This document shows positions 50,505 to 60,071 of a stretch of DNA of 64,000 nucleotides, one piece after another (within the stretch, counting starts at the first letter, position 1; each line of letters starts with the position of its first letter). Both the position numbers and the translations under genes were made by a program. The DNA is from Halodesulfovibrio aestuarii DSM 17919 = ATCC 29578 (GTDB lineage Bacteria; Desulfobacterota; Desulfovibrionia; Desulfovibrionales; Desulfovibrionaceae): assembly GCF_000384815.1 (NCBI RefSeq), contig NZ_ARQF01000019.1, positions 186,001 to 250,000 on the forward strand, given 5' to 3'. The notes beneath the pieces are model-generated. The model was not told where the DNA came from, did no database searches, and saw only the letters and a program-made list of their open reading frames with translations.

Positions 50505-50673
50505 CGGATGACGGTTGCAGGAGAGTGTGTCGCAAGACACCGCCGAAGAAGTAAATCTTTCAGGCAAAAGGACTGCTTCCCGACGAGCCTCTGGAGAGAC
50601 TTCGCATGTTGCGGAGCACCGAAGGAGCAAACCTTGCTGTGCAGGGTGAAACTCTCAGGTACAAAGGACAGAG
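50505..50673 (+). promoter_or_regulatory. Tandem glycine riboswitch
   Basis: Two glycine aptamers in a row. The first (about 50506-50578) has GGTTGCAGGAGAGTG, CACCGCCGAAG, TCAGGCAAAAGGAC; the second (about 50586-50672) has CTCTGGAGAGAC, GCACCGAAGGAGCAA, CTCTCAGGTACAAAGGACAGAG. These are the conserved blocks of the glycine/gcvT motif. It lies 110 bp upstream of an AGCS symporter. An obvious expression-platform terminator is not visible, so control could be translational. Confidence 0.93.
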
Positions 50674-50782: not shown

Positions 50783-52174
50783 ATGCAAAACATCACAGAA
50801 CTGCTCAACACAATGGATTCCCTGGTATGGGGACCACCGCTTCTTATTCTGCTCGTAGGAACTGGACTTTTTCTTACCTTTCGCCTCGGCGCACTACAGG
50901 TTGTCCACCTACCAAAAGCATTAAAACTCGTTTTTTCCCCTTCTTCGCGTAAAACATCCAGCAACACTGGAGACGTTTCTCCATTTGCTGCATTATGCAC
51001 GGCTCTTTCCGCTACCATCGGTACTGGTAACATTGTCGGTGTAGCCACTGCGATCACTGCAGGCGGCCCGGGAGCACTTTTCTGGATGTGGGTTGCTGCA
51101 TTCTTCGGCATGGCAACCAAATATGCAGAAGCGCTGCTTGCCATTAAATACCGCGTCATAGATGAAAACGGCCAGATGGCCGGCGGTCCTATGTACTACC
51201 TTGAACGCGGCTTAAATAACAAACTGCTCGCACAAATGTTTGCACTCTTCGGCATTGGTGTTGCATTTTTCGGCATCGGAACCTTTGCACAGGTAAACGC
51301 CATTGCAGATGCTGCAATGCTTACCTTTGATGCACCAGTCTGGGTTACAGCAACAATACTTACCATCCTTGTTACTATCGTCACTCTCGGTGGAATTCGT
51401 TCTATCGCTGCTGTAGCCAGTCGAGTTGTTCCATTCATGGCCGTACTCTACATAATTACATCCATCTCAGTAATTTTGCTGAACCTTTCCGAAATTCCTG
51501 CTGTAATCAGTCTTATTATCGACAGCGCATTCAACCCGGCCGCGGCATTCGGTGGTGCAACAGGTATTACCGTACTCATGGTAATGCGCAATGGTGTTGC
51601 CCGCGGTGTATTCTCGAACGAATCCGGTCTCGGTTCAGCGCCTATCGCAGCAGCGGCAGCACAGACTGACTCCTGCGTACGTCAGGGACTTATCGCCATG
51701 ACAGGTACATTCTTCGACACCATCATCGTATGCACTATGACAGGTATTGTTATCGTTCTTACAGGCGCATGGAACACTCCAGGGCTTGCAGGTGCAGCCA
51801 TGACTAACTCTGCATTTGCAATGGGTCTAAACAGCGACGTTGGTAAATACGCTGTTACCATCGGCCTCATGTTCTTTGCATTTACCACCATCATCGGCTG
51901 GAACTACTACGGCGAACGTTGCACTGCGTACCTCTTCGGCGTTAAAGCTATCAAGCCGTACCGCTTTATCTACATTGCGCTTATTGCTTGCGGTGCTTTC
52001 CTCAAGCTCGAACTCATCTGGGTTCTTGCAGATATCGTGAATGGCCTTATGGCTATCCCGAACCTTATCGGTTTGCTCGGTCTGTCCGGCGTAGTAGTCA
52101 ATGAAACCCGTGAATTCTTTGCAAAAGAAAACGCTCAGAAAGCAACAGCCGGTGCTGTTCTTACCGAAATGTAA
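50783..52174 (+). CDS. Alanine/glycine:cation symporter (AGCS family)
   Basis: 463 residues, about 11 TM segments. GTGNIVGVATAITAGGPGALFWMW and NGVARGVFSNESGLGSAPIAAA are AGCS signatures. It imports alanine or glycine with Na+. The tandem glycine riboswitch in its leader points to glycine as the physiological substrate, or to export/import being tuned to glycine level. GGAG before ATG 50783. Monocistronic; a terminator follows. Confidence 0.92.
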   Translation: MQNITELLNTMDSLVWGPPLLILLVGTGLFLTFRLGALQVVHLPKALKLVFSPSSRKTSSNTGDVSPFAALCTALSATIGTGNIVGVATAITAGGPGALFWMWVAAFFGMATKYAEALLAIKYRVIDENGQMAGGPMYYLERGLNNKLLAQMFALFGIGVAFFGIGTFAQVNAIADAAMLTFDAPVWVTATILTILVTIVTLGGIRSIAAVASRVVPFMAVLYIITSISVILLNLSEIPAVISLIIDSAFNPAAAFGGATGITVLMVMRNGVARGVFSNESGLGSAPIAAAAAQTDSCVRQGLIAMTGTFFDTIIVCTMTGIVIVLTGAWNTPGLAGAAMTNSAFAMGLNSDVGKYAVTIGLMFFAFTTIIGWNYYGERCTAYLFGVKAIKPYRFIYIALIACGAFLKLELIWVLADIVNGLMAIPNLIGLLGLSGVVVNETREFFAKENAQKATAGAVLTEM

Positions 52175-52659: not shown

Positions 52660-53253
52660 TTAAAGCTTCTCGATAACGAGTAAGTGTTCTTTGTTTAATT
52701 CTTTATTCGGAAAATCATATCGTCCCACACGGAAATCTTTCCACGATAACGTCGCCGCCCACGCCTGAATCTCATCACCTTCGGCGCTGCCGCCTTCATG
52801 CCCTGTATATATATGTACTGTGACCACACCGTTTGCCGCCAACATAGGGAGCAACGCCTGCAGAGAAGCAATCGTCGTATGGGCACGGGTAATGACAGCA
52901 TGGTCACTCCCCGGAAGGTAGCCCAAGTTGTACATAGCGCCTGCAACGACGGTTTCTTCCGGAAGTCTTTCCGCTACCTTTTCGTGTCCATCGTGGAACA
53001 GCGTAACGCGCTCTGCCATCGATGCACTTTCAAGCCGTTCCTGAGCATTCGCAAGTCCAGACGCCTGCACGTCGAAACCGTACACGTGACCTTTTTCACC
53101 GACAAGTTCCGCAAGAAACAATGTATCGTGACCATTACCAACAGTTCCGTCGACAGCCACAGCTACGGTTTCCGTGTCGTTCCAGCTTGCAGCAACCTGC
53201 TGCCAAATTAATTTTGTAAACTGTAATATAGAAGGAATGTGCCTAGGCCGCAT
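52660..53253 (-). CDS. Class I SAM methyltransferase, MnmM/YtqB type
   Basis: 197 residues. Motif I VDGTVGNGHDTLFLAELVG, motif II VYGFDVQASG and MYNLGYLPGSDH match the YtqB/MnmM group, which methylates nm5s2U34 in tRNA in Bacillus. Function here is inferred by that likeness. ATG 53253 has AGGAG five bases upstream; an upstream TTG is disfavoured. Confidence 0.75.
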   Translation of the reverse strand: MRPRHIPSILQFTKLIWQQVAASWNDTETVAVAVDGTVGNGHDTLFLAELVGEKGHVYGFDVQASGLANAQERLESASMAERVTLFHDGHEKVAERLPEETVVAGAMYNLGYLPGSDHAVITRAHTTIASLQALLPMLAANGVVTVHIYTGHEGGSAEGDEIQAWAATLSWKDFRVGRYDFPNKELNKEHLLVIEKL

Positions 53254-53387
53254 AGTTTCTCCTGCGTGCTGCAATCGAGCTAATCTTTTCCTGTAAATTA
53301 TCTCCTCAAACTACGTGAACTTAAAAATAATCACAATATAGCCATCCGGCTGCTCAAAAAAAGTACACACTTTAAAATATGTGCTCT

Positions 53388-53438
53388 TTGTGCAAAAACT
53401 GCAACTTGTGCACACCACTTATTGCACAAGTTGCACAA
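53388..53438 (+). promoter_or_regulatory. Upstream activator palindrome for a sigma-54 promoter
   Basis: TGCAACTTGTGCA (53400-53412) and TGCACAAGTTGCA (53423-53435) are a perfect 13-bp inverted repeat with a 10-bp spacer. The half-site TTGTGCA also occurs at 53388-53394 and its complement TGCACAA at 53432-53438. It ends 53 bp before the -24 element, a usual distance for an enhancer-binding protein. Confidence 0.6.
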
Positions 53439-53490
53439 TCAATGAATTACAAAAAGAGTACAATCAATTGATTTTACACACTTATTTTTT

Positions 53491-53506
53491 TGGCACACTC
53501 CATGCT
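53491..53506 (+). promoter_or_regulatory. Sigma-54 promoter
   Basis: TGGCACACTCCATGCT has GG and GC at the -24/-12 spacing of the consensus TGGCAC-N5-TTGCW (14 of the key positions fit except the first T). Start expected near 53517. Confidence 0.65.
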
Positions 53507-53516
53507 ATAAAGAAAA

Positions 53517-53828
53517 TAACAAACGAAACCAATCACACACACTCCGTGGTTGTTAATATAAAGAGCAATAAAAGTATCCATCTAACGATCCAGCATCGTT
53601 AACACTAAGAATGTGTTAAAGCACACCTCTTTAAAGTAGACGACTGAAACACCTACTCCCGTTGGGGGCGGCAGGCATGCCGCCCCCCTTAGAAAAAAAA
53701 CGCCCACACGTTACATATAAAATTTCACCATCTTCCCTTTTAGCTCCAGCACTGTTTTGAGCAGGAACAGTAGACCGGAGGGGAATAAAAAAACGAGAAG
53801 TGCAGAGCAGGCACTTCTCGTTTTTTTT
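53517..53828 (+). ncRNA. Candidate sigma-54-driven structured RNA, ~310 nt
   Basis: From the sigma-54 start to a strong terminator there is no credible ORF; the longest ATG frame is 27 codons without a site. Five hairpins are readable: AACGAT-CCAGC-ATCGTT (53584), TTAACAC...GTGTTAA (53599-53619), GGGGGCGGCA-GGCA-TGCCGCCCCC (53664-53687), ACTGTT...AACAGT (53751-53771), then the terminator. I know no family with this layout. If the terminator leaks, the transcript would be the leader of the methyltransferase gene at 54016. Confidence 0.5.
53787..53828. terminator. Strong terminator with no coding gene before it
   Basis: AAAAAAACGAGAAGTGC-AGAGCAG-GCACTTCTCGTTTTTTTT. It can work both ways, but no gene on either strand ends here. 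Confidence 0.88.
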
Positions 53829-54015
53829 ATGCGTGTCGGGTAAAATCCTATAGAAAGGATCAACATTGTAACTACGGAATGTTATACAAAGATACTTTTG
53901 TTATATAATGCTCACATCGCGTTCTCGTTCTTGCCCTACCCAGTATCATTAAGGTACACCTCATTTCGTTCTGGCTATACGCCACAAAAATTGCAGAAAA
54001 CGGTACTTGGATACA

Positions 54016-54927
54016 ATGAATAACACTACGCTATATCTTGCCCCTCGGGGATTTGAAAAAGAGCTTGAAAAAGAGCTTACAAATATTGTTGCACACAAGG
54101 GTCGCCTGTTCATCGCTAAAGGCGGCGTGCAGAAAGCCATATGGGCACAAAACATTTGGCTGAACCCAGTCGAAATCCCTATTGCTTCAATCGGGGACGC
54201 TGCAAAACAGCTAAAAGCCATCCAACGAAACTGGTGGCTGCACAGCGTGGATAACCACCGCAGAGCAAAACTTATTCAAGCCAAGTTGCCGCATGTATCT
54301 GGAAAACGCATTGAATATGGTGCACCAAAGCCAACCGCTCCATTAGGCTCATGGACTCTCTGGGAACCTGACACCATTATCGCGGCAAGTCGTTGCACCA
54401 GCCCATACCCTGATGGCGAATTAAATTTTGTAGAAGATAAGGAAACCTCTCCAACGCGAGCCTATCTCAAGCTATGGGAACTTTTCACCATACTTGAGCG
54501 CAGCCCGAAAAAAGGCGAACTCTGTCTTGATCTCGGAAGCTGTCCCGGAGGCTGGACGTGGGTTATTGCAAACACAGGTGCCCATGTTTTCAGCATTGAT
54601 AAAGCAGAAATTCATCCTCGAATCGGCTCTATGCCCAATGTAAATTTCTGCACCGGCAGCGCATTCGGGCTTGATCCACGCCATGCAGGGGAAATAGACT
54701 GGCTCTTCAGTGACGTTATCTGCTATCCGGAACGCCTGTACACTCTTGTTGAACGCTGGCTCGAACACGGTGAATGCCGTAACTTTGCCTGCACCATCAA
54801 GTTTCAGGCCGAAACAGATTATGAAACATTAGAAAAATTCAAACAAATTCCGAACTCAAAAATTATCCATCTCTCATGCAACAAGCATGAAGTAACATGG
54901 GTTAAGCTTGAAGAATGGGATAAGTAG
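54016..54927 (+). CDS. RlmM-like rRNA 2'-O-ribose methyltransferase
   Basis: 303 residues. Motif I DLGSCPGGWTWVI, and the K-D-K-E type catalytic residues appear in AYLKLWELF, WLFSDVICYPERL, CTIKFQ and KHEVTWVKL, as in the RrmJ/RlmM group that methylates rRNA ribose. The N-terminal part resembles a RlmM-type RNA-binding region. ATG 54016 is used; a TTG nine bases earlier is less likely. A TATAAT at 53904-53909 may be its -10 element. Confidence 0.8.
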   Translation: MNNTTLYLAPRGFEKELEKELTNIVAHKGRLFIAKGGVQKAIWAQNIWLNPVEIPIASIGDAAKQLKAIQRNWWLHSVDNHRRAKLIQAKLPHVSGKRIEYGAPKPTAPLGSWTLWEPDTIIAASRCTSPYPDGELNFVEDKETSPTRAYLKLWELFTILERSPKKGELCLDLGSCPGGWTWVIANTGAHVFSIDKAEIHPRIGSMPNVNFCTGSAFGLDPRHAGEIDWLFSDVICYPERLYTLVERWLEHGECRNFACTIKFQAETDYETLEKFKQIPNSKIIHLSCNKHEVTWVKLEEWDK

Positions 54928-56268: not shown

Positions 56269-57021
56269 TTAGGCATTTTCGTTTCCGCCCAACACGCTTT
56301 TAAACATGCCGCGACGGGTTACGGTTTTCGGTTTAGGCGCTGCTGCTACCAGATTTTCACGCTGCGCTGTGGAAGCAACAAGCCTGTTATGGTAGTTTTC
56401 CGGTGCAGATTCACAAAGATAAATCACACGAACATGCTCAGGATCTGCGAGATACGCGTCCGGATTAGTCTTTTGCACTTCAGCAAGACGTGCATTAGCT
56501 AATGCAAGCATTTCATCACGGTCACCAAAATTCATAGTGCCGGTGGGACAGCTTTTCACACAGGCTGGAAGCATCCCCTTGCTTATACGGTTAATGCACA
56601 TATCACATTTATTCCAGATGCCGCTTTCTTCATCACGACGCGGAACGTTGTACGGGCACATTTCCCAGCTTTCAAGGCGGGTAATACCTTTTGTTTTGTC
56701 TGTCATAATGACAGCCCCTGTGACGGGATCCTGTTTTACAGCACCATCTGCATACATGTTACCGATATATTTACACGGCGGCTCAATGCAATGACGACAT
56801 TGTTCCGGAAAGAAAAGCCACTTGAGTTTACCGTCTTCTTTTACTTCGTTAAAACGAACAAGACGGATAGTTTTTGCAGACAAATCCTGCGGATTCTGGT
56901 GAGAGCCCACGTTACGGGTTTCTTCTGCCGGAAGATCTTTCCACTGTTTACAAGCAACCTGACAACCGCGACATGCAGTACAGAGGGTAAGGTCGACAAA
57001 AAAAGCTTTACCTTTAATCAT
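56269..57021 (-). CDS. fdhB: Formate dehydrogenase, iron-sulfur beta subunit
   Basis: 250 residues with four ferredoxin-type [4Fe-4S] motifs: CTACRGCQVACK, CRHCIEPPC, CPY and CDMCINR...CVKSCP. It has no signal peptide and no C-terminal TM anchor, so it is probably co-exported with FdhA's Tat signal and stays soluble in the periplasm. The start overlaps the fdhA stop (TAATG). It carries electrons from the active site to cytochrome c3. Confidence 0.93.
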   Translation of the reverse strand: MIKGKAFFVDLTLCTACRGCQVACKQWKDLPAEETRNVGSHQNPQDLSAKTIRLVRFNEVKEDGKLKWLFFPEQCRHCIEPPCKYIGNMYADGAVKQDPVTGAVIMTDKTKGITRLESWEMCPYNVPRRDEESGIWNKCDMCINRISKGMLPACVKSCPTGTMNFGDRDEMLALANARLAEVQKTNPDAYLADPEHVRVIYLCESAPENYHNRLVASTAQRENLVAAAPKPKTVTRRGMFKSVLGGNENA

Positions 57022-60000
57022 TATGCATCACCCTCCTTCCATTTGCGCACATTGACCATAAAGGCTTTGTACTCTGGAATACCGGTGTTCGGGTCACCGA
57101 CGTTAGGGGTAACCAAGTTTGCAGAATCACCACCGTCTTTCGGTGTTACCCAGCCGTAATGCCATGGCATACCAACCATATGCACGTCTTTACCGGCAAT
57201 TTTAAACGGCTGTATGCGATCAGTAACCATCGCGATTGCCCACAGGGAACCACGCACGCTTTCTACAATAACTTTTTCACCATTTTCAAAACCGCGCAGC
57301 TTTGCAAGCTGTGGACTGATTTCGACAAACATCTGCGGTTCTGCTTCCACAAGCCAACTCATCCAGCGAGTCATGGAACCAGTCTGCCAGTGTTCTGTCA
57401 CACGGTACGTGGATGCAACAAACGGGTAACGCTCGTCCGCAACAGCTTTCTTTTCATCTTCAAAATGAACAGCCGTCGGGGTATTCAACTGCTTTGAGAA
57501 TGCATGGGAGTCAATAGGACATTCCAACGGCTCGTAGTATTCAGGAAGAGGGCCATCTGCACGCCCGGGACCAAAGAGCTGTCCCATACCATGCTTAAGC
57601 ATGATGAATGGATGCTTGGTACCAGGTGCCCAGCCGCCGTCCGGCACATCACCAACCCACTTTTCGCCGTTCCATTTAATTACAGCTTTCTCTGGATTCC
57701 ACGGGTTACCCTTTGGATCACAGGAGGCTCTGTTGTAAATGATACGACGGTTAACAGGCCAACACCAAGTCCAGTTCGGGTACAGGCCGATACGTGCCTG
57801 TTCGGCAGTCTGAGTGCTGTCGTGACGCTCTGCCTTGTTCCCTTCATCTGTATAGGAGTTACAATAGAGCCAGTTACCGGAAGTGGTGGAACCATCATCT
57901 TGAAGGTATGCGAAGCTGGGAACCTGTTGTCCCTTTGTAAACTTTTTGCCCTTTACTTCTACATCACGGGTGAACCAGCCGTTACACAGACGTGCAGTCT
58001 GCTGGGCGCTGAAGTGATAGTGACCGTCTTCATCCGCTTCACACATATTATTGAAAGTAAGATGGGTGATTGGCTCCGGATATGCCCCGCTCTCTTCATT
58101 ATAAAGATGCACAAGCTCTTCCCACAGTTCATGGAAGTAGTGACCATCGGTCAATACGCCGTCCTGCGGTTCCTGCGCTTTATAACGCCACTGCATCCAG
58201 CGGCCGGAGTTGGAAACCGATCCCTCTTTTTCGATTGCAGATGCACACGGCAGATAGAATGTCTCGGTTTTAACAGACTTAGGATCCATGCCGGGCCCTT
58301 TCCAGAAGTCACTGGTCTCACAGGTAAACAAGTTAACGTTTACCATCCAGTCCAACTCACTGAGAGCCTTACGGGTTTTCTCAGAGTCAGAACCGGAACA
58401 CGCAGGGTTCATACCCCAGATAAGTGCACCGGAAAATTTCCCGTCTGCCATACGGTCGATAAGAGGCAGCCAGGAGTATTCACTGGCTTTATGAGAATCA
58501 AGGCGCGGTAGATAGTTATAAGCATCTTTCGGGTCGTCATTTTCGTACATCGCCTTAATAAGGCTTGCAGAATACTTAGGATAGTTGCTCCACCAGTTTG
58601 CACTTTTCGGATCATTGGAAACCGGAGTAAATGCCTTGTTGTACTGTTCAAGAGTATCCTGACCAGCTAACGGTGTTTTAAGATAACCGGGAAGAATGTG
58701 ATATAACAACGCATAGTCTGTTGACCCCTGTACGTTACATTCACCACGCAGCGCGTTAACACCACCGCCGGCAATGCCCATGTTACCCAACAAAAGCTGG
58801 ATCATCGCCATTGAACGAATGTTTTGTACACCGACAGAATGCTGAGTCCAGCCCATTGCATACATAATGGTACCAGCTTTTTTAGCGGTACCGGTTTCAG
58901 TATACAACGTATAAATCTGCTTCAAATCTTCAACAGAAACACCGGACATGGAAGAAACGTTATCGAGAGTGTAGCGCTCATAATGTTTCTTCATAATCTG
59001 GAATACACAACGTGGGTGTGCAAGAGATTTATCCCGTTTAGGATTACCCTTACTATCCATTTCAAATGTCCACTTGGACTTATCATAGGAACGAGTAACA
59101 GGATCAAAACCGGTAAATAAACCATCTTTAAATCCGTAATCTTCACCTACAATAAAGGAGGCGTTGGTGTATTCCACCATGTACTCTTTGAAGTACCGTT
59201 TCTCTTGCAGAATGTAATTAATCATACCGCCAAGCACAGCGATATCAGTGCCGGAACGAAGCGCGGCATGCATATCTGAACGTGCAGAGGTACGGGTAAA
59301 TCGAGGATCGACATGGATTACTTTGGCACCAGCACGCTGAGCTTTAAGTACCCATTTAAAAGAAATTGGATGATTTTCGGCAGGGTTACTACCCATAATC
59401 AAAATGCAATCACTGTTCTGTAAATCATTCCAGTGGTTGGTCATGGCACCGCGTCCGAACGACTCTCCCAGAGCCGCTACTGTTGCGCTGTGTCAGATTC
59501 GTGCCTGGTGTTCCACATACACCAGACCAAGGGAACGCATAAAAGAATGCATTGCATAACATTCTTCGTTATCAAGAGCGGCAGACCCCAGAGAAGCAAT
59601 TCCCATAGTACGGTTAACCACTTTCCCTGCTGCGTTTTTCTCTTCAAAAGACTCATCACGAGATTTTTTTATGAGCTTTGCAATACGTTTTTTACACCAA
59701 TCCCAATCTTTAACTTCAAACGCATCACTATACGGTGCACGGTACATGCATTTAGTTGGCCTATCTGCATTTACAGTCATCTGGATAGAACTAGCCCCTT
59801 TAGCACAAAGAGAGCCACAGTTAATCGGATGATCGCTGTTACCTTCCACGTTTACAACGCGTCCGGTTGATTTGTTGGTGTGAACCAACAAACCACAGCC
59901 GACAGAACAGAACGCACAGATAGATGTGGTCTGTTTACTCCACTGAATTTTATTCTCTCCAGCTTCTTTCACTACATTGTCCAAAGCAAATGCAGGCCCC

Positions 60001-60065
60001 AATCCTGTAAATGCGGTGACAGTTACTGCTGTTGCAGTCGTCTTCAAAAACGTCCTTCTTTGCAT
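57021..60065 (-). CDS. fdhA: Formate dehydrogenase, selenocysteine alpha subunit
   Basis: About 1014 residues when TGA at 59493-59495 is read as selenocysteine (residue 191), joining two frames that standard tools would split. Tat signal QRRTFLK; a [4Fe-4S] site CAFCSVGC...CAKGAS; the active-site context VEHQARI-U-HSATVAALGESFGRGAMTNHW; then the molybdopterin domains. It oxidises formate to CO2 with a Mo- or W-bis-MGD centre. ATG 60065 has GGGAG six bases before it; a TTG at 60071 is less likely. Operon: fdhA-fdhB-cytochrome c3. Confidence 0.95.
59459..59477 (-). promoter_or_regulatory. Bacterial SECIS hairpin for fdhA
   Basis: Minus strand GCGGCUCU-GGG-AGAGUCGU forms an 8-bp stem (two G-U) with a 3-nt G loop, beginning 15 nt after the UGA, the usual SECIS distance. 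The small loop differs from the E. coli GU-containing loop. Confidence 0.6.
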
Positions 60066-60071
60066 TCGCAA

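Follow-up and report, generated by a model that had tools for sequence, protein, structure and literature searches.

The window analysed here is a 64,000-nt stretch of the Halodesulfovibrio aestuarii genome (G000:C19:186001-250000), and all plain positions refer to it. On its forward strand, positions 53388-53828 carry activator half-sites, a predicted sigma-54 promoter and a predicted RNA of approximately 312 nt (53517-53828) that has no conserved ORF and ends at an intrinsic terminator. The next gene downstream (54007-54927) encodes an FtsJ-family methyltransferase, which we take to be RlmM. Elsewhere, the window contains tandem glycine riboswitch aptamers (50508-50673) that precede a gene of the sodium:alanine symporter family (50783-52174), as well as a minus-strand gene (57021-60071), presumably of the formate dehydrogenase type judging from its sequence, which is split by an in-frame TGA (VEHQARI-U-HSAT) that most likely encodes selenocysteine.

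The upstream activator half-sites (UAS) are centered on an inverted repeat (53400-53435) with the core TTGTGCA-N9-TTGCACAA, in which TTGTGCA starts at 53406 and TTGCACAA at 53422. An outer half-site TTGTGCA (53388-53394) and an additional half-site TTGCACAA (53431-53438) flank this core, both on the plus strand. An earlier reading made from the sequence alone (hereafter the sequence-only reading) described a perfect 13-bp inverted repeat with extra half-sites, and direct reading finds it as placed, with arms TGCAACTTGTGCA (53400-53412) and TGCACAAGTTGCA (53423-53435) separated by a 10-bp spacer; all other positions given in that reading check out as well. The window has a single TTGTGCA-N8-14-TGCACAA arrangement and none of 100 shuffled sequences has any, which puts it beyond chance. 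The perfect 13-bp arms belong to this genome alone (1/10 genomes of the genus Halodesulfovibrio); the conserved feature is the half-sites, three or four of which are kept 60-105 bp before the promoter in the six genomes that carry the RNA. The core half-sites, whose conservation in relatives the sequence-only reading had proposed to check, are present in all six, the left one reading ATGTGCA in G002. The outer half-site is TTGTGCA in four of the six and ATGTGCA in the other two, and the additional half-site contains TTGCACA in five. Two more TTGTGCA/TGCACAA palindromes in the same genome (C19:185646 and C19:392992) have no promoter nearby according to a regular-expression search.

The -24/-12 element TGGCACACTCCATGCT (TGGCAC-N5-ATGCT, 53491-53506, plus strand) shows the GG-N10-GC spacing, and the predicted transcription start (53517) is placed from its -12 part. 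The sequence-only reading had proposed this element, which direct reading confirms. The pattern TGGCACN5WTGCW occurs once in the window versus 0.22 times expected, and 22 of 100 shuffled sequences contain one; the element alone is therefore not significant, and the case for it rests on conservation. A GG-N10-GC element is found in all six RNA-bearing genomes and at the syntenic place in four further genomes, and the promoter block is 0.92 identical among the six. We infer that this promoter is used by sigma-54.

The RNA at 53517-53828 folds strongly (-90.1 kcal/mol, z = -5.9), and none of 100 shuffled sequences reaches as low an energy. Its predicted parts, all on the plus strand, are hairpin 1 (53530-53552), the loop of which exposes CACACUCC (53538-53545) and whose stem has a counterpart in the ORF-bearing relatives described below; a helix (53559-53633) that closes a branched domain, inside which are two hairpins (UAACGAU/AUCGUUA and UGUG/CACA); a GC-rich hairpin (53664-53688), in which a compensatory change of one pair is seen in a relative; a variable linker (53691-53728) between the 5' and 3' domains; a 3' domain (53729-53783) in which a nested hairpin, CUCC.../...GGAG, surrounds ACUGUU/GAACAGU; and the terminator (53787-53828), consisting of a stem and a T-run. 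The hairpin-rich character claimed by the sequence-only reading thus holds, but its count of five hairpins does not, as the RNA contains more than five helices and the 5' part alone has seven. The strong terminator that it placed at these positions is nearly invariant across the six genomes, and its judgement that no credible ORF is present agrees with the finding that no full-length frame is conserved in the six sequences. Candidate start codons recur (GTG in 5/6, with frames of 12-59 codons; ATG in 4/6, with frames of 10-27 codons) and have no clear Shine-Dalgarno sequence, and a 73-codon ORF has its start at 53381, before the predicted transcript begins. Consistent with the earlier failure to match a named RNA family, Rfam models at gathering level identify none at the RNA locus when run on the window, and a loose search of 53200-54050 returns no credible family, the best match (E = 0.078) falling well short of its gathering score. 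No phage matched the region by blastn, nor was the terminator pattern found in viral contigs.

Comparison of the six genomes resolves the locus into blocks of contrasting identity: 0.56 upstream, 0.79 in the UAS, 0.58 in the spacer between UAS and promoter, 0.89 in the 5' part of the RNA, 0.54 in the linker, 0.88 in the 3' part and 0.42 downstream. Of 59 genomes searched by blastn, 6 have the region, corresponding to 6/10 within the genus and 0/49 outside it. A model of the 5' part yields one strong match in each of 6/10 genus genomes, in addition to two marginal matches (E 0.06 and 0.10), and with stricter filters it matches 6/199 family genomes, all of them Halodesulfovibrio; a 26-base pattern from the RNA is present in H. 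spirochaetisodalis JC271 and Halodesulfovibrio sp. N3. The alignment of relatives suggested by the sequence-only reading therefore bears out conservation of the blocks but gives little sign of the covarying helices looked for. Only 1/42 pairs of the 5' part is changed on both sides, with 81/500 shuffles doing as well, and the whole alignment has 4/79 such pairs (covariation term +0.2), which is attributable to the sequences within the clade being too alike. For hairpin 1, compared across all 10 genus genomes (6 distinct sequences), two pairs are changed on both sides and 14/500 shuffles reach the covariation score.

In 6/6 RNA-bearing genomes the FtsJ-family gene lies downstream of the RNA in the same orientation, so that the transcript might be an ordinary leader or attenuator of that gene. 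This is very improbable: the strong conserved terminator lies approximately 180 bp before the ORF, so that the locus does not look like a leader, the stretch between RNA and gene is only 42% identical, and the FtsJ-family gene is unmatched in the stretches retrieved from G003-G006 and G010, where the syntenic promoter persists. The sequence-only reading had named a continuous mRNA, which would make the RNA a mere leader, as the outcome that would speak against it, and the terminator and the divergent intervening sequence point the other way. Its main proposal, a sigma-54-controlled small RNA locus, is supported by a UAS, -24/-12 element, RNA and terminator that are conserved apart from their flanks. 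A sigma-54-controlled RNA gene, with both promoter and RNA predicted, is well supported by comparison.

The same promoter type is widespread. The sequence-only reading had suggested searching genomes for other such palindromes before -24/-12 elements, and the pattern of two half-sites plus promoter occurs in 73/288 family genomes from 16/44 genera; a reversed control pattern is absent from the matches listed. Inspection covered 30 of these loci, 10 of them from Halodesulfovibrio. Several have an apparent secreted small protein, judged by eye, directly behind the promoter, and both of the two proteins tested from behind such promoters match Metal_resist (PF13801), which we take to be the family of ZraP. 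At other loci (genus g50, G060, G031 and G010), the promoter is not closely followed by any credible ORF. Genus g50 has a conserved short transcript with a shared GC-rich hairpin core in 8 genomes (L115-L121, L158), and the transcripts of G060, G031 and G010 are short and C-rich. A simple terminator scan finds none for G031, G060 and genus g50, where hairpin ends were judged by eye; in some of the GC-rich loci, a naive frame scan lists long overlapping frames (for example, 448 codons in L119) that were judged not conserved.

The neighbors of these promoters point to a candidate activator. The window contains no gene for an enhancer-binding protein (EBP) in its 64 kb, and 8 of 19 stretches (approximately 9-18 kb) around UAS promoters contain one. 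In 8/8 cases, the best match of this neighboring EBP among 24 EBPs of H. aestuarii is L025 (G000:C21:984952-986571; 51-65% identity, next best 44-46%), a regulator with receiver, AAA+ and Fis-type domains that adjoins a PAS-domain histidine kinase. In G011, G031 and G100, the UAS-neighboring EBP is also the genome's own best match to L025, while G060 and G091 have the L025 ortholog away from their UAS matches. L025 orthologs are set off by a bit-score gap (>=492 versus <=402) in 20/21 genomes searched and are present in G010 as well as throughout the genus, and the 27-residue C-terminal helix-turn-helix is identical in G000 and G100. G029 has the regulator and no match to the UAS/promoter pattern. 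In G011, a Metal_resist gene is followed by the PAS-domain kinase and then by the EBP. Half-sites also lie upstream of the kinase-EBP operon of H. aestuarii itself, but the -12 element there matches poorly, and the ORF in front of the operon (1066 codons) does not resemble a Metal_resist gene. The half-sites of the window locus could instead be used by another EBP, since the H. aestuarii genome has 34 Sigma54_activat matches (24 of which were extracted as the queries above), paralogs may use related half-sites, and most UAS loci (11/19) are without a neighboring EBP. This is a rather unlikely alternative, as all eight neighboring EBPs fall into one ortholog group that is present in 10/10 Halodesulfovibrio genomes. 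From these sequence comparisons, it is a good inference that a ZraR-type protein activates the window RNA.

Four Halodesulfovibrio genomes (G003-G006) have no match to the RNA model, and their loci were identified by a half-site and promoter pattern search of the genus. As this pattern also gives chance matches, some apparently in coding DNA, syntenic neighbors were required. In all four, a -24/-12 element adjoins the ortholog of the methyltransferase neighboring the window locus (PF06962; 53-55% identity). Their UAS is reduced to one or two exact half-sites: relative to the promoter, an exact TTGCACAA is located at -58 to -60 in G004-G006 and at -70 in G003, and only G006 has a second exact half-site. 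The transcript behind this promoter carries a 59-64-codon ORF with the Shine-Dalgarno sequence GGAG and is also strongly folded (z -3.8 to -7.0). One syntenic promoter is thus followed by an ORF-less RNA in six species and by a coding transcript in four. The small-protein ORF has dN/dS values of approximately 0.20-0.38 in 6/6 pairs by a simple Nei-Gojobori calculation over 53 codons, with dS >1 in five of them, and apparently is under purifying selection; its frame stays open further upstream in G004, G005 and G006. None of the four proteins (L087, L088, L089, L090) matches a Pfam family, and this orphan is found in 4/199 family genomes, all within the genus. Two further matches (E 9e-4 and 0.007) were rejected as weak, partial and inside longer frames, and a single plasmid match was rejected as weak and partial.

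The coding transcripts raise the possibility that the window RNA is the relic of a small-protein mRNA, that is, that an ancestor encoded the 59-64 aa protein and the window lineage lost the Shine-Dalgarno sequence, the start and the first codons, leaving a decaying transcript. The promoter and methyltransferase neighbor shared with G003-G006 are compatible with this scenario, as is the ORF that looks selected there. The distance between the anchors ACAACAAACG and ACCAATCA is 44 nt in G006 versus 2 nt in G002, a member of the window clade, and the start and the larger part of the ribosome-binding site fall within the 44 nt of G006. However, an RNA body 88-89% identical between flanks of 42-56%, with a nearly invariant terminator, is unlike decay. 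Moreover, half-sites and a promoter also adjoin the methyltransferase ortholog in G010, which belongs to a different genus and is the only one of 12 methyltransferase loci outside Halodesulfovibrio to be arranged in this way; the G010 transcript is strongly folded (z -7.2), contains CUCUCCUCCUCCUU and a terminator, and has no Shine-Dalgarno-led ORF. Although the RNAs cannot be aligned between genera, this transcript and the other ORF-less ones (G031, G060 and genus g50) make a gain of the ORF in G003-G006 no less parsimonious than its loss from the window clade. Decay from an mRNA is thus an unlikely origin of the window RNA.

H. aestuarii contains a second RNA of this kind (L077, G000:C20:850161-850680), in which half-sites and promoter precede a folded RNA of approximately 425 nt (z -5.7) with no evident ORF and a terminator identified by eye. 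It is also found in five sister genomes (L059, L081, L064, L065 and L072), and a divergent version in G003-G006 (L130, L132, L138 and L071) is recognizable by the GUGGCAGA hairpin, so that GUGGCAGA is present in 10/10 genus genomes. Rfam models at gathering level match neither L077 nor L130. One hairpin of the second RNA has a CCUCCUC loop in all ten genomes on stems that differ, although the ten stretches were picked by expressions already containing CCTCCTC, after the motif had been read; the stems were judged by folding each sequence because MAFFT misplaced the 5' stem. Near the second RNA, G000 and G008 have a gene for a small, apparently secreted protein, and G007 has a His-rich small protein with its own promoter-like site.

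C/U-rich segments recur among these transcripts. The excess of CUCC/CCUC over shuffled sequences has values of 0.004 for the second RNA, 0.004 for the G010 transcript and 0.056, 0.000, 0.012 and 0.004 for the four ORF-bearing transcripts, all being single-test values for a motif chosen after seeing the sequences; the window RNA shows no significant excess (0.094). Among its four CUCC/CCUC sites, CACACUCC is predicted to be unpaired at 0.99, ACUCCC at 0.56 and the two others at 0.34 and 0.22. A UACUCC(U)CGUU-like stretch is common to the window RNA (53654-53663) and L077. That RNAs of this regulon may pair with Shine-Dalgarno sequences is best suggested by the invariant CCUCCUC loop; for the window RNA, the hint is weaker. 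A long, structured RNA with several stem-loops could also serve as a protein sponge of the CsrA/RsmA type rather than pair with mRNAs. GGA occurs only three times in the window RNA, each time in the 3' domain, unlike the many GGA-containing loops of CsrB/RsmZ, and no Rfam family matches at gathering level; a sponge is accordingly very improbable.

Sigma-54-driven RNAs are a known kind in this group. In Kazakov et al. 2015 (PMC4641369), four ncRNAs are among the sigma-54 targets of Desulfovibrio vulgaris; those of strain Hildenborough are described as targets of DVU0653, DVU0679 (Dv_sRNA2), DVU1419 and DVU2359 (PMC4641369, PMC3333781), the control of Dv_sRNA2 by DVU0679 being given in Rajeev et al. 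2011 (PMC3333781). DVU1419 and DVU3381 appear in Kazakov et al. as envelope-stress EBPs, DVU1419 with an ncRNA (PMC4641369). Compared by description only, these loci share with the window locus the wider bacterial group, a sigma-54 promoter with an EBP site and a non-coding transcript, whereas the model of the window RNA matches Halodesulfovibrio alone (6/199 family genomes). By analogy, the locus would also resemble Vibrio Qrr/LuxO and GlmY/GlrR, in which an EBP and sigma-54 drive a regulatory RNA and a regulon has more than one RNA, but the activator is different, the window RNA has no Rfam relation to these RNAs and the Qrr covariance model of Rfam does not match it. The window RNA is presumably about three times as long as Qrr. 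We could not find an earlier description of the window RNA in the literature or in Rfam: a search combining Halodesulfovibrio and sRNA found no paper, and the available part of PMC11124144 holds nothing on this RNA.

The candidate activator recalls the ZraSR/HydHG-ZraP system. Relatives of H. aestuarii have a comparable set comprising a response-regulator EBP, a histidine kinase encoded next to it and, under a sigma-54 promoter, a small protein for metal resistance; the contrasts are that RNAs are apparent targets here and that no ZraP-like gene precedes the kinase-EBP operon in H. aestuarii. In the sigma-54 regulon of Salmonella, ZraR is listed with zraP and hydHG, and GlmY is under GlrR (PMC3844500). 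The likely signal would be metal or envelope stress. However, PMC8836040 reports strong down-regulation of zraP by D. alaskensis G20 exposed to copper; this argues against simple metal induction there and makes the signal uncertain.

Taken together, 53388-53828 is probably a gene for a sigma-54-dependent small RNA activated by a ZraR-type regulator, with C/U-rich segments that perhaps pair with ribosome-binding sites. A ZraR/HydG-type two-component EBP (L025) would bind the TTGTGCA/TTGCACAA half-sites and drive the structured RNA up to its own terminator. The RNA would act in trans, exposing the C/U-rich CACACUCC in the loop of hairpin 1 and ACUCCC before the GC-rich hairpin, and we hypothesize that these segments pair with the Shine-Dalgarno regions of target mRNAs during metal or envelope stress.

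More tentatively, the ZraR-type metal/envelope-stress regulator of Desulfovibrionaceae might use anti-Shine-Dalgarno RNAs as a main output, with at least two in Halodesulfovibrio. The window locus would then represent a transition between an RNA gene and a small-protein gene, and the orphan 59-64 aa protein possibly arose within a regulatory RNA. For this conserved RNA, found in marine sulfate reducers, the comparison supplies a named candidate activator and a second RNA with a like promoter. As the syntenic promoter is followed by either a non-coding or a coding transcript among 10 related genomes, whether a small protein arose in an RNA gene or was lost from it becomes directly testable in this genus.
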